A stretch of 64,000 nt of DNA, taken from positions 434,001 through 498,000 of the forward strand of contig NZ_BBZB01000002.1 in assembly GCF_001269985.1 (NCBI RefSeq). The letters run 5' to 3'. The notes below the pieces were generated by a model. It worked only from the letters and a program-made list of their open reading frames with translations, did no database searches and was not told the DNA's origin. Numbering within the stretch: position 1 is the stretch's first letter; each line of letters starts with the position of its first letter. The stretch is from Pseudoalteromonas sp. '520P1 No. 423' (GTDB taxonomy: Bacteria; Pseudomonadota; Gammaproteobacteria; Enterobacterales; Alteromonadaceae). The translations under genes were made by a program, and so were the position numbers. Positions 31,499 to 37,578 of this stretch are shown here, in pieces.

Positions 31499-31743
31499 AA
31501 AAAAAGCCCGAAAGGGCTTTTTTGAAAATTCATATCAACCGTCACCGATATGAGCAATGTAGCAAGTAATAAGGGTTGATCATCGACAGCTTAGTATCAA
31601 AGGGCGATAGTTACTAACCTATCAATGATCTTACAGTTTTACGTTCTGTTTAACGTCTTACAGGGTTCTTTTTTATCTAAAATAAGCCTGGCTTCCTGCC
31701 AATATGTCGTCCTTGGGTCTGAGGTTAGGTACTGTGTTTCGTT
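31499..31743 (-). ncRNA. RyhB-like Fur-controlled small RNA, copy 1
   Basis: Predicted transcript of about 245 nt on the minus strand. The -35 TTGACT (complement of 31774-31779), a 17-bp spacer and the -10 GATAAT (complement of 31751-31756) form a near-consensus promoter. A GC-rich hairpin with a T run at 31499-31522 is the terminator. At 31545-31560 the RNA reads ACATTGCTCATATCGG; ACATTGCTCA is identical to the conserved target-pairing core of enterobacterial RyhB. There is no open reading frame. A perfect Fur palindrome covers the -10. It should be made under iron starvation and repress mRNAs of iron-using proteins. Confidence 0.8.
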
Positions 31744-31805
31744 GATAATGATTATCAATTAGAATTGATTCTAAGTCAATCTATAAATGATAATTATTTT
31801 CATTT
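31743..31805 (-). promoter_or_regulatory. Promoter and two Fur boxes of sRNA copy 1
   Basis: A 15-bp perfect palindrome TGATAATGATTATCA at 31743-31757 overlaps the -10 and start site. A second Fur-like site lies at 31785-31805 (ATGATAATTATTTTCAT), just upstream of the -35. Both match the GATAAT-based Fur consensus. Confidence 0.82.
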
Positions 31806-31846: not shown

Positions 31847-32104
31847 TCATGTTAGCTTTTTAGAAATAGTGCTCAACCAATTACGAGCCTCTTCTTCACT
31901 ACCCACATCATGTAAAATAACTTCGGCCTGATCATTAAATTGATCTTGCCACAATAATGGACCTAACGCTTTCATATGATCTTTTGATTTTATAGTTGCG
32001 ACAAATCGAAGGTTCGTATCTGCAATAAGTCGAGGAAAATGCACATCCTTGATATATTCTTTAATGCTAGGAGAAAACACTCCAATAGTCATATCAGCTT
32101 TCAC
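31847..32104 (-). CDS. STAS/SEC14 (SpoIIAA)-like protein, start uncertain
   Basis: 85 residues from a GTG at 32104, ending ILHDVGSEEEARNWLSTI. The frame continues upstream without a stop to about 32317, and homology-like sequence reaches about 32250 (IKIFYEKENELLIHEWLEYN). Together this matches the pattern of single-domain STAS/SEC14 proteins of about 130 residues. No ATG, GTG or TTG is found at the expected start near 32250, only ATA/ATT codons. Either it uses a rare start or it has lost its start. It lies between the two sRNA copies. Confidence 0.5.
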   Translation of the reverse strand: MKADMTIGVFSPSIKEYIKDVHFPRLIADTNLRFVATIKSKDHMKALGPLLWQDQFNDQAEVILHDVGSEEEARNWLSTISKKLT

Positions 32105-33293: not shown

Positions 33294-33959
33294 TTAAACT
33301 AATGAGACACTTTCAGCACTTGTGATCTGCTCACCATTCCAAATAAGTGCGAAGTGTGTGCTTTGAATTATTTCTTGTACATTTTTTGGTGTAAGCATCG
33401 CCCAGCAAATCGCACCTTCATTTCTAACACTGTTGTATTTGATTGTTTCTATGCCTGCATTTCTGAGTTTGTTACCTAACTGTCTAGCATCCGTATAGTT
33501 TTGTTTATCATATACGGGATCTGTTATATCTAAATTCGTTAAGTCGTGAATTTTTCCCACATTAAACTTAACTTTAAGCCCTCTAAGGACGATACGATCA
33601 TAATGCAACCCAGAAACTTTACTAAAATAGTTTTGTTGATGGTGAGTGACTTCAGCCAATGCTGTTTCCATGCTATCAGCAACATATAGTACACCAGCAT
33701 CCCCATAAGAAAACCTAGAACCATCTGGATTGATATGAGTAAAAGGAGCTGTAGCGTATGAACATCCAGTAATACCAAATGGAATATCATTTTGATTAAC
33801 TAGCCCAAGATCCCCTATTTCAGCTTTCAATCTTGGGTTTGTTAATGACTGTAGTAAAAATAGATCTTCAAATTCATCCGAATCTGCTACATCATCAAAC
33901 ATGTCTATTGTTGGATACTTTGAGTTTATTAACCTATAACCAATTAACACTATCGTCAT
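33294..33959 (-). CDS. RES-domain toxin (NAD+-degrading)
   Basis: 221 residues from ATG 33959, chosen over the GTG at 33980 because TGGAG lies just upstream and the GTG overlaps the antitoxin. RES-domain features: YRLI near the N-terminus, FSYGDAGVLYVADSMETALAEV in the middle with the conserved Glu, and a late SVRNEGA. RES toxins of Xre-RES modules cleave NAD+ and stop growth. The antitoxin gene is 7 bp upstream on the same strand. Confidence 0.85.
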   Translation of the reverse strand: MTIVLIGYRLINSKYPTIDMFDDVADSDEFEDLFLLQSLTNPRLKAEIGDLGLVNQNDIPFGITGCSYATAPFTHINPDGSRFSYGDAGVLYVADSMETALAEVTHHQQNYFSKVSGLHYDRIVLRGLKVKFNVGKIHDLTNLDITDPVYDKQNYTDARQLGNKLRNAGIETIKYNSVRNEGAICWAMLTPKNVQEIIQSTHFALIWNGEQITSAESVSLV

Positions 33960-33966
33960 TACTCCA

Positions 33967-34383
33967 CTACCATTGTGCACCTCTCATAGCGTCAATTCTC
34001 TTGAATGTTTCATATAAAGAACCAAAGCTACCAGTTGCAATTACATCTAACGGTTTTTTACCGTTAAAAAATTCATTATTATTTTCAAAACCCATAAAGC
34101 CATAAACATTCTCAGGGTTATCAAACACAAGCCTTAACGCTTGATGCATATTTAATAGATACGATAAACGCTCTATTTGGTCATTATTGAGGTTTGCCCT
34201 AGTAGGGTCTTTTTTTACATTGAAATAGGTAGCCCTACCTAGCTGTAGAATATTAATCGCTTGGTCAGTACTAGCCCCCCATTTATCTAAAATATTCAAT
34301 GAAGCTTTCAAACCCGCTGTAGTTGCTTTTTTAATTTCAGCCTTTTCAGCCTTTTCAGTATTTTTATCTTGTGATGTTTTCAT
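33967..34383 (-). CDS. Xre/MbcA/ParS-type antitoxin (DUF2384)
   Basis: 138 residues from ATG 34383; a TTG at 34401 would add six residues but has no better context. The C-terminal toxin-binding DUF2384 domain is clear (VFDNPENVYGFMGFENNNEF, NGKKPLDVIATGSFGSLYET), preceded by a helix-turn-helix-like region (WGASTDQAINILQLGRATYF). The first 25 residues are Lys/Glu-rich. It neutralises the RES toxin and represses the operon. A palindrome 17 bp upstream is the probable operator. Confidence 0.85.
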   Translation of the reverse strand: MKTSQDKNTEKAEKAEIKKATTAGLKASLNILDKWGASTDQAINILQLGRATYFNVKKDPTRANLNNDQIERLSYLLNMHQALRLVFDNPENVYGFMGFENNNEFFNGKKPLDVIATGSFGSLYETFKRIDAMRGAQW

Positions 34384-34399
34384 TTTATCCGCCTTCTTC

Positions 34400-34427
34400 A
34401 ACTTAAACTGAGCCTAAAGTTTAAGTT
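34400..34427. promoter_or_regulatory. Palindrome, candidate Xre-RES operator
   Basis: Perfect 10-bp arms AACTTAAACT (34400-34409) and AGTTTAAGTT (34418-34427) with an 8-bp spacer, directly upstream of the antitoxin ATG. Antitoxins of this family autoregulate through such repeats. Confidence 0.6.
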
Positions 34428-35288: not shown

Positions 35289-37535
35289 TTAAAACTGATA
35301 GCTTAAAGTTGCTTTAAAGTTACGACCTAACTCACCAGGATCATTGGCTTCACTGGCTGGTGCTCTAAGGTATCTTTCATTAGTTATATTATCTATTCCA
35401 ATAACGAAACCTAAACCAGATAACTTGCCATTTGGAGAATAACTTACATTTAAATTAAATAATTCGTAAGAGTCAGTACCATAGCCCGCATTTAAATATT
35501 GTTCCGGTAATCTATCTTGCTTTGCATAAGCTAATATCTGACCACCAATATTAAGACTCTCAAGTAGCTGATAATTTAAGTTGATTGATAATTTGTCTGC
35601 AGGGGCATCAGCATAAGGCTGCTTTTGATAATCTATACTACCTAAGAAAAAGTTAGGCATACCTTCAACATCCATATTCATTGATGAGTATCCAAGATAA
35701 GCATCAAATTTACCTAGTTGGTAATTAAGCTCTAATTCAACTCCTTTATTAATTAATAATCCGATATTTTTAGCGCTGTAATCTCTATGTGTTGCTACAG
35801 GTATTCCATTTTCAGGTTGAGGGCCTGGAGAACCTTGTATCTTATCGCCATCATCATTAATGTAATACATAAAAGGTACGTTATTGATGTAATTATCGAT
35901 CTCATTGTCGAAATAAATCGCTTTAAAGCTTAAGTAATCTGAAAAGAGCGTATCTTGCCAAGATAATCCAAATCCAATTTCATAGTTTTTAGATGTCTCA
36001 GGTTTTAAATTAGGCTGAGGTTCTGAATAGCAAATTTTCCCGCCTATATGACAACGCCATTCATCTTTTTTATAAAGCTCTTGCACCGAAGGTGCTCTAA
36101 ATGCTTCAGCATATTTTAAATAAAAATTTAAAAAGTCAGTGGTTTTAATTGTTAACCCGAGTTCTTTAGAAAGTGAACCATCATCATTATTACTATAATC
36201 TACAAACTTATTACTACTACGCTTATAAGTATCATAACGAATTCCTGCAGTAGATAATAAATGACCATCAAAAAATTCAGCTTGATCAATTATTGAAAAA
36301 GATAAGCTTTTGGCATCACTATCACCATAATAGGTGTTGATATTGTCATCGGTATACTCTGACTGTGTAAAGCTTTCGCTTTCATAATTAAATTCAGTGG
36401 CTAAACGGTGGTTTATAAAGCTTTCAAGTTCAGTTAAATTGGCAATTCTTATTCCAGTTCTTTTAGTCGCCCCCTCACTTATTTTGTCAAAACTGATTTG
36501 ATTACCACGACGCTCTATGTAACCTTTGGTTTCTTCTTGATAGTTTTTCTTTGAGTAAACAAGTTGAACATCAAGGTCTATCAAAGCACTATCTGGTTGA
36601 TAAGTATAATTGGCCATAGCTTCAATATAGTCATTTTGATAATCTTCAGCTAAGGTTGGGTAATTAATTGCGTGAGATTGGCGTTGTCCGTAGGGTTGGT
36701 CAATAGATTGGGTATCACTCCAATCTAATTTACTTTGCAAACTATGCATAGGTGAAAAATGCCAAGTGTTTTTAAGTGTTAAGTTTATTCTCTCAGAGCT
36801 ATTTTTAATTTTATCTAATAATGCAACAGGTTCTATATCGTCTGGTGTTACAAAGTCACTTTTATTTTTAGCAACGACATCAATATCTGAAAATGTGATT
36901 TTGCTTGCATGAATTACGGTATCTAATTGATCTGTTAAGCTAAATAGTGAAACTCCAAACTTAGTTGAGTCAGATGCCGATTGATATATACTAGATGCAA
37001 GCGCGCCAAAACCATTTTCACCAAATAAGTAATCACTAGCATCTTTTGTCACTAAACGAATGCTACCACCAATTGCACCAGAGCCTACAGTAAGTGAATC
37101 TGCACCCCGTAATACTTGAACTTGTTTTAACTGAGCAGGATCTACACCTAAACTATTAATGCTGGCAATATTACTTGTACCATCAGACTCTGTTTTTCGT
37201 TTTACATTATCAACCGAAATATGAATTCTTTCTCCGTACAATCCTCTTATCACAGGTTGCCCTGATAATGGGGTTACGCTTCCGTTAATATCGACACCAG
37301 GCAAGTCTTTTAAGATATTAATGAGTTCGGATTGCTGTTTTCGAGCGATTTCTTTTTCATTGATTACAGAGATTGAAGAAGCGACATCTTGATTTAATAA
37401 ACTAATCTTATGACCAAAAACTTCAATATGCTCCAATTCTTTCCTGTCAGTTTTAGCCTCCTCCTCAGCAGCAAGAGGAGTGCCATAAATAGCCGAACAC
37501 ATAGCTATAAAAAGAGCGGATTGTTTCATTTTCAT
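35289..37535 (-). CDS. TonB-dependent heme/hemoglobin receptor
   Basis: 748 residues. Signal peptide 1-22 (ending LAAE), TonB-box-like HIEVFGHKI, plug with LPGVDINGSVTPLSGQPVIR and LRGADSLTVGSGAIGG. The barrel carries AEAFRAPSVQELY, the FRAP box of heme and hemoglobin receptors, followed by PNLKPETSKNYE, the equivalent of the NPNL box. C-terminus ATLSYQF. A consensus Fur box lies just upstream. It imports heme or hemoprotein-bound iron under iron starvation. Inner-membrane heme transporter genes are not in the window. It is divergent from DUF4920 and PepSY genes. Confidence 0.88.
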   Translation of the reverse strand: MKMKQSALFIAMCSAIYGTPLAAEEEAKTDRKELEHIEVFGHKISLLNQDVASSISVINEKEIARKQQSELINILKDLPGVDINGSVTPLSGQPVIRGLYGERIHISVDNVKRKTESDGTSNIASINSLGVDPAQLKQVQVLRGADSLTVGSGAIGGSIRLVTKDASDYLFGENGFGALASSIYQSASDSTKFGVSLFSLTDQLDTVIHASKITFSDIDVVAKNKSDFVTPDDIEPVALLDKIKNSSERINLTLKNTWHFSPMHSLQSKLDWSDTQSIDQPYGQRQSHAINYPTLAEDYQNDYIEAMANYTYQPDSALIDLDVQLVYSKKNYQEETKGYIERRGNQISFDKISEGATKRTGIRIANLTELESFINHRLATEFNYESESFTQSEYTDDNINTYYGDSDAKSLSFSIIDQAEFFDGHLLSTAGIRYDTYKRSSNKFVDYSNNDDGSLSKELGLTIKTTDFLNFYLKYAEAFRAPSVQELYKKDEWRCHIGGKICYSEPQPNLKPETSKNYEIGFGLSWQDTLFSDYLSFKAIYFDNEIDNYINNVPFMYYINDDGDKIQGSPGPQPENGIPVATHRDYSAKNIGLLINKGVELELNYQLGKFDAYLGYSSMNMDVEGMPNFFLGSIDYQKQPYADAPADKLSINLNYQLLESLNIGGQILAYAKQDRLPEQYLNAGYGTDSYELFNLNVSYSPNGKLSGLGFVIGIDNITNERYLRAPASEANDPGELGRNFKATLSYQF

Positions 37536-37557
37536 TTGATTAACCTTTATTTAACGT

Positions 37558-37578
37558 AAATGATAACCATTATCATTT
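37558..37578. promoter_or_regulatory. Fur box between heme receptor and DUF4920 genes
   Basis: A 21-bp near-perfect palindrome (ATGATAACCATTATCAT core), 23 bp before the receptor start. It also lies about 120 bp before the divergent DUF4920 gene, so it can control both. Confidence 0.85.

Follow-up and report, generated by a model that had tools for sequence, protein, structure and literature searches.

Across large parts of the ocean, growth is held back by a shortage of iron. Pseudoalteromonas is a widespread genus whose members can be cultured. Within a 64,000-nt stretch of the genome of Pseudoalteromonas sp. '520P1 No. 423' (hereafter the window), a first-pass annotation picked out a minus-strand unit that joins a Fur-like promoter to the pairing core of RyhB, and thereby raised the question of whether these bacteria carry RyhB itself, an RNA of separate make that does similar work, or something else. 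From the comparisons set out below, we consider it probable that the unit encodes a genus-specific, Fur-repressed, trans-acting iron-sparing small RNA that acts like RyhB, with petA as its first predicted target. The annotation's provisional placement of the DNA in the Alteromonadales was right, the genus being Pseudoalteromonas. Among the literature matches listed for Pseudoalteromonas and Alteromonas with RyhB, small RNAs, Fur or iron limitation, no such RNA is found by title or abstract, and none describes an iron-sparing small RNA for Pseudoalteromonas; the RNA may be among the unnamed small RNA predictions in supplementary lists of P. fuliginea papers. The family is of interest as an RNA found throughout a genus, for which both a seed and a target open to experiment can be named.

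Direct reading of the sequence confirmed the unit as first described, namely about 245 nt of non-coding RNA with a TTGACT-17-GATAAT promoter, two Fur-like palindromes, the core and a terminator (Table 1). The promoter scan alone performs at chance level (3 found versus 3.0 expected), eight 19-mers in the 64-kb window score at least 14/19 against the Fur pattern in plus-strand reading, and a single 14/19 Fur match is not rare in an A+T-rich window; the promoter and Fur-like sites of copy 1 stand above chance because they are conserved among 45 distinct copies of the gene. The window's best Fur match (16/19, 37556-37574) lies elsewhere, just upstream of a TonB-dependent haem receptor gene (35289-37535, minus strand), and is consistent with Fur control in this genome.

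Table 1. Features of the small RNA locus and its flanks, in window coordinates
Feature	Position	Strand	Basis or remark
Small RNA copy 1, predicted transcript of about 245 nt	31743-31499	-	sequence reading, conservation, folding
-35 hexamer TTGACT	31779-31774	-	sequence and promoter scan
-10 hexamer GATAAT	31756-31751	-	sequence and promoter scan; 17-nt spacer to -35
Predicted +1	31743	-	
Fur-like 19-mer at -19, over the -10 (15/19, minus-strand reading)	31762-31744	-	
Second Fur-like 19-mer, at -64 (14/19)	31807-31789	-	
RyhB-like core ACATTGCTCATAT	31560-31548	-	
Near-invariant block UACUUGCUACAUUGCUCAUAUCGGUGACGGU, holding the RyhB-like core	31568-31538	-	
Hairpin UCAUAUC-N10-GAUAUGA, nearly invariant, including the 3' part of the core	31553-31530	-	
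Middle hairpin, its apical loop C-rich and conserved, CGCCC(C/U)UUGAU	31630-31578	-	outer helix with compensatory changes
Intrinsic terminator AAAAAAGCCCTTTCGGGCTTTTTTT, 7-U tail	31523-31499	-	
Small RNA copy 2; a separate promoter and Fur-like sites extend to 33070	33006-32760	-	91% identity to copy 1 over the matched stretch
GNAT acetyltransferase ORF flanking copy 1, same strand, downstream	31352-30996	-	
85-aa orphan ORF flanking copy 1, without a family match	31847-32104	-	

The unit is one member of a gene family. The genome to which the window belongs holds three intact copies, two in the window and one at C2:728036-728353, together with two diverged ones on C1. A search of the genus with a 371-bp stretch gave a match in 107 of 108 Pseudoalteromonas genomes, one of them the genome of the window itself, and in the remaining genome (G096) no copy was matched. 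The match covers most of the 371 bp in three genomes only (the window's, G014 and G070), and elsewhere, among the matches listed, it is mainly the last 77-90 nt that align. That full-length matches are few and 3'-end matches many indicates that the 5' half evolves fast and the 3' domain does not. In the named genome collection, 100 stretches contain an exact 21-mer, TTGCTACATTGCTCAYATCGG, and all 80 among the matches listed come from Pseudoalteromonas. A covariance model built on the 3' domain (R1), run with strict search filters under which weak matches may be lost, recovers 32 of the 395 genomes of the taxonomic family, all 32 of them Pseudoalteromonas with one to five hits each; among 52 genera, this is the only one matched. 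As far as searched, the RNA therefore appears to be specific to Pseudoalteromonas.

Many copies are arranged in tandem, and their surroundings vary. At four loci (L005, L007, L009 and L011) the array and ylqF are convergent, ylqF lying on the opposite strand, so that there the RNA is no mRNA leader; the surroundings differ again at L017, in the window and in Pseudoalteromonas sp. Bsw20308, whose copy sits on a 906-kb replicon (NZ_CP013139.1, around 422512-422586) in a stretch without a listed gene (the gene table carries no RNA genes) and has a TPR gene downstream on the same strand. We take Bsw20308 to be P. fuliginea BSW20308, the strain studied in PMC9927453 and PMC11882849. In 17 further genera of the taxonomic family, the stretches adjacent to ylqF contain no exact core; some hold strings with one mismatch, none recognisable as a copy. 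In the window, a RES-domain toxin and an Xre/MbcA/ParS-type antitoxin (33294-34401, minus strand) adjoin copy 2.

Several variant members were also seen. One short, diverged member (L034, about 1400-1600; G000:C1:334160-334239) has a promoter, the GGTGACGG hairpin and a terminator, and carries CTACATAAAAATTATATCGG in place of the core, which makes it a natural seed-loss variant. A second (L035; G000:C1:2941060-2941142) has one base of the core changed (CTACTTTGCTCATATCGG) and most of the hairpin loop lost, and a third (L003 of G070, 1567-1814) has a 1-nt deletion in the core, CTACTTGCTCATATCGG.

For comparison among copies, 45 distinct transcripts of 204-259 nt were extracted from 31 fetched loci after removal of duplicates; the copies were found by a search for the core, and none was dropped for a missing promoter or terminator. 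Forty-four of them have the promoter TTGAC(N)-17-GATAAT, the remaining one reading AATAAT, and in 45 of 45 the best Fur match (13-16 of 19) falls at -19 or -64; the second-best site is weaker, at 11-14 of 19, and is not always at one of these two positions. The block from UACUUGC to GAUAUG, compared in 33 of the 45 copies as aligned, is invariant apart from the 1-nt deletion in L003 and one A/U position. The core-bearing 3' domain, nearly invariant together with the terminator, is thus the most conserved part of the RNA, an outcome opposite to the one that would have counted against the first-pass annotation, namely that relatives fail to conserve the core. The nearly invariant hairpin locks up UCAUAUC, the 3' part of the core.

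The copy 1 RNA, folded as 31745-31501, is more stable than 200 shuffles of it (z -3.43). Around the C-rich loop, the sequence of the middle helix varies, yet 90% of cells remain paired, and five of its seven pairs have changed on both sides. Over the whole structure, 57 cells are changed on both sides compared with 16.2 (sd 4.1) in shuffles, and the covariation score is 0.210, shuffles giving 0.104 and slid controls no more than 0.050. Two of the five measures of covariation are not distinct from the shuffles, namely the number of pairs with a both-side change, 6 versus 4.8 (108 of 500 shuffles reach 6), and that of further pair types, 21 versus 18.3 (36 of 500 reach 21); kinship among the copies can inflate the others.

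Inspection of the reading frames agrees with the initial claim that there are none. Copy 1 has no open frame of at least 15 codons bearing a Shine-Dalgarno-like site; one such frame each occurs in 8 of the 45 copies, copy 2 of the window among them. Copy 1 does have a 13-codon ATG frame that terminates at a conserved CGG TGA, for which no conserved start codon or Shine-Dalgarno-like site exists across the 45 copies. A coding role was rejected on this survey of frames; the compensatory helix changes and the invariant block favour the RNA, and not a peptide, as the object of selection. The comparison of copies supports the annotation's central proposal, a conserved non-coding RNA gene with a Fur-type promoter and a RyhB-like core, and the sequences examined show a multi-copy RNA family that is conserved across the genus and has no match in Rfam.

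Which messages might such an RNA pair with? The genome of the window, scanned for the seed complement with at most three mismatches, yields 80 sites, four of which are the family's own copies; most lie inside open frames or have no nearby start with a Shine-Dalgarno-like site. Two stand just upstream of iron-linked genes, petA and ccmD, and four further starts (L273, L296, L365 and L386) are weak candidates. The string TGAGCAATG has 75 sites in the same genome, three of them in the RNA's own copies, and in the fetched stretches it occurs in 68 distinct contexts, three at a start region: petA, a surE-like gene and a HAD-like gene, the latter two named by inspection without a family search. Reversed-pattern controls contain CG dinucleotides and are an unfair control, and the apparent excess of sites was not used.

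The gene petA, which encodes the Rieske subunit of cytochrome bc1, a respiratory iron-sulphur protein, is the leading target candidate rather than a finding. A leader element, TCTCAAT(A/G)T(A/G)GCAAGT(A/G)TTG(A/G)G, is present about 40 nt upstream of its AUG in 29 of 29 Pseudoalteromonas genomes, and the leaders of these 29 form duplexes of -13.5 to -20.2 kcal/mol with a 16-nt seed, as against only -8.1 to -10.8 kcal/mol for the leaders of 20 of 20 other genera without an R1 match, one of which (L430) has the short string GCAAGT. With a 25-nt seed, petA comes out lowest, at a mean duplex energy of -20.6, among 17 conserved gene clusters, defined as genes with at least six distinct start regions in the fetched loci of the genus; the other 16 average -13.1 (sd 2.2), with a best of -16.9. 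On a plain single-gene energy list, petA is third of 230 start regions, which include loci fetched because they matched, and is not singled out. These comparisons are to be read with the order of selection in mind, petA having been chosen by the scan of one genome before the conservation test, and the genus counting as one evolutionary event.

Other properties of the leader bear on this candidacy. In the leaders that were folded, the element makes a hairpin whose loop contains or lies close to GGCAAG or AGCAA, which places part of the complement of the seed ACUUGCUA in the stem. The petA gene begins AUGAGCAAUG, the exact complement of CAUUGCUCAU; the same or nearly the same start is found in most of the 20 genera without the RNA, and that site therefore did not arise for the RNA. 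The leader element is present also in G096, where no RNA copy was matched. The leader (L318-L346) is strongly conserved and includes AACCTGCTGTAACTGA in most copies as well as an inverted repeat; it may hold a promoter and operator, and the repeat could be a protein operator.

Two further candidates were considered. ccmD pairs strongly in the window's genome (-19.6) but in only 1 of 29 genomes, and it was dropped. The start regions of 20 iron or manganese superoxide dismutase loci from 13 Pseudoalteromonas genomes, the place to look for the sodB pairing proposed at the outset, have no core complementarity of note and reach only -8.6 to -13.6 kcal/mol with the 25-nt seed.

Taken together, these observations suggest the following model. 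Each copy would be a gene in its own right, encoding a small RNA that acts in trans by base-pairing. When iron is present, Fur would block transcription from two palindromes, one at -19 that overlies the -10 and one at -64; when iron is scarce, Fur would leave, and all copies would be transcribed from the near-consensus promoter to the intrinsic terminator. The 3' domain would offer the seed UACUUGCUACAUUGC, predicted to be mostly unpaired, beside the nearly invariant hairpin, and the U-tailed terminator looks suited to Hfq. The seed would then pair with the leaders of iron-rich respiratory genes, petA first, and lower the translation or stability of these targets, and so save iron in the manner of enterobacterial and Shewanella RyhB. 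The genes themselves, their conservation, the compensatory changes in one helix, the restriction of model matches to the genus and the petA complementarity are observed directly; Fur control, the involvement of Hfq, an iron response and repression are what we infer from them.

That the RNA shares a ten-mer with RyhB by chance, within a near-invariant block, is unlikely, which leaves descent or convergence on GCAAUG-containing start regions. It is possible, and we propose it tentatively, that the RNA is an independently evolved, multi-copy counterpart of RyhB, confined to Pseudoalteromonas, that converged on the ten-base core and has the petA leader as its main co-evolved target. Were this so, iron starvation would throttle cytochrome bc1 rather than superoxide dismutase. 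The family also makes it worth asking whether start regions with GCAAUG are such good targets that the RyhB core has come about more than once.

Descent, in the form of a true but strongly diverged RyhB orthologue that kept the core of the same ancestral gene while the rest was replaced, we regard as unlikely. It would account for the ACATTGCTCA(C/T)AT common to both RNAs, placed within the most conserved block here, for the Fur-type site matched at the promoter of all 45 distinct copies, which is a RyhB feature, and for the tandem copies, found also in genomes of family f2, probably Shewanella, and in S. amazonensis according to PMC2964681. Shewanella likewise offers a precedent in which Rfam failed at first. 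Against it, the RF00057 covariance model, the check that the first-pass annotation had in view, gives no match at the gathering score in the window, in the genome or in 18 loci of the RNA family; it matches 89 of 247 genomes of the order, none of them in family f1, which includes Pseudoalteromonas, and its matches extend to sub-threshold tandem copies in family f2, which we take to be Shewanella. A scan of the locus with all of Rfam, at E up to 10, returns only sub-threshold matches (Thr_leader, STnc370, PrrF at 16 bits and others), bearing out the remark that standard annotation may miss this RNA. In the reverse direction, R1 finds none of 20 fetched RyhB-type loci (best 15.1 bits, E 0.51), and ORFs neighbouring the arrays (L005, L007, L011 and L017) have no tblastn match at E 1e-5 in these 20 loci, each of which includes about 2.3 kb on either side.

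The core itself also differs. In 15 of the 20 RyhB-type loci, ACATTGCTCA is followed by a second half, (A)TTGCTTCC; 13 of these read ACATTGCTCACATTGCTTCC, and two (L259 and L260) have one or two extra bases. The other five (L254-L258, family f16), RyhB-type, partly tandem and below the Rfam cut-off, do not carry ACATTGCTCA followed by that half, and the two of them that were scanned (L254 and L255) have the core TATTGCTCACATTGCT. The Pseudoalteromonas RNA has the first part only, followed by ATATCGG folded in the nearly invariant hairpin; the second ACAUUGCUUCC half is absent, and of the full RyhB core ACAUUGCUCACAUUGCUUCC the common part is ACAUUGCUCA(C/U)AU alone. With the covariance model, the reverse R1 search and synteny all failing to join the two, membership in RyhB was rejected; a reading of it as RyhB with the usual targets is not supported, on these grounds, on the half core and on the lack of sodB pairing. 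The RNA would instead be a functional counterpart, RyhB-like in its anatomy, that fails the RyhB membership tests that were run.

Quite improbable, in our judgement, is a Fur-controlled RNA whose 3' domain mainly does something else, such as protein sequestration or acting as an RNA sponge, and in which the RyhB-like ten-mer is incidental. Half of the core does lie in the nearly invariant hairpin, whose loop GGUGACGGU is as conserved as the seed, the C-rich loop is conserved as well, and the diverged copy L034 keeps the hairpin loop with the core lost; L035, however, is the reverse case, having the core with one change and the loop TGACGG lost, GGA motifs are few (0-4 per copy), and the petA complementarity sets the genus apart from 20 other genera. 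Least credible of all is that, in place of a free small RNA, the sequence is a 5' attenuator or encodes a leader-peptide element belonging to the gene downstream: a weak Thr_leader match over part of the terminator (26.2 bits against a cut-off of 55, E 0.012), the 13-codon frame of copy 1 and a same-strand gene downstream (GNAT here, TPR in Bsw20308) point that way, but at L005, L007, L009 and L011 the next gene is the opposite-strand ylqF or another copy, the same-strand gene is not the same one in the two cases, and the frame has no conserved start and Shine-Dalgarno-like site in 45 copies.

Returning to the iron-sparing reading, the predicted RNA may be set beside systems already described. 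With RyhB (RF00057; Enterobacteriaceae, Vibrionaceae) it shares a Fur-type operator at the promoter, the ACATTGCTCA core, an intrinsic terminator and a non-coding character; it differs in having no RF00057 match, no second core half ACATTGCTTCC and no sodB pairing, in a core that lies partly in a hairpin, in its length of 204-259 nt and in its limitation, as far as searched, to one genus. PrrF1 and PrrF2 of Pseudomonas are Fur-controlled functional analogues of RyhB. Their arrangement is tandem, as mentioned in PMC2964681, and the likeness lies in tandem copies and in the Fur-type control predicted here, whereas the Pseudoalteromonas RNA has no PrrF match above the cut-off (16 bits versus 90). 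Within the genus itself, the Csr RNAs Pf1-Pf3 of Pseudoalteromonas fuliginea (PMC9927453) have 25, 21 and 9 GGA motifs (PMC11882849), compared with 0-4 per copy in our 45 copies, a count by which membership among Csr/Rsm sponge RNAs was rejected.

A further parallel is with Shewanella. The RyhB of S. oneidensis was missed by the Rfam model and found by synteny with Vibrio, has a Fur box, is longer than that of E. coli, includes c-type cytochromes among its targets and lowers sodB when overexpressed (PMC2964681, PMC5826389); two tandem copies are described there for one species, S. amazonensis (PMC2964681). The Pseudoalteromonas RNA resembles it in the Rfam miss, the Fur box, the length, the tandem copies and, as a candidate feature here, respiratory iron-protein targets, and differs in that the family f2 loci carry the full ACATTGCTCACATTGCTTCC core. 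Viewed against the iron-sparing class as a whole (RyhB, PrrF, NrrF), its sequence has the non-coding unit, the Fur-type promoter and the intrinsic terminator. As for a seed that would pair with iron-protein mRNAs, the observations are mixed: the candidate petA has the complementary element in 29 of 29 genomes, ccmD pairs strongly in 1 of 29, and the superoxide dismutase start regions show no complementarity of note.
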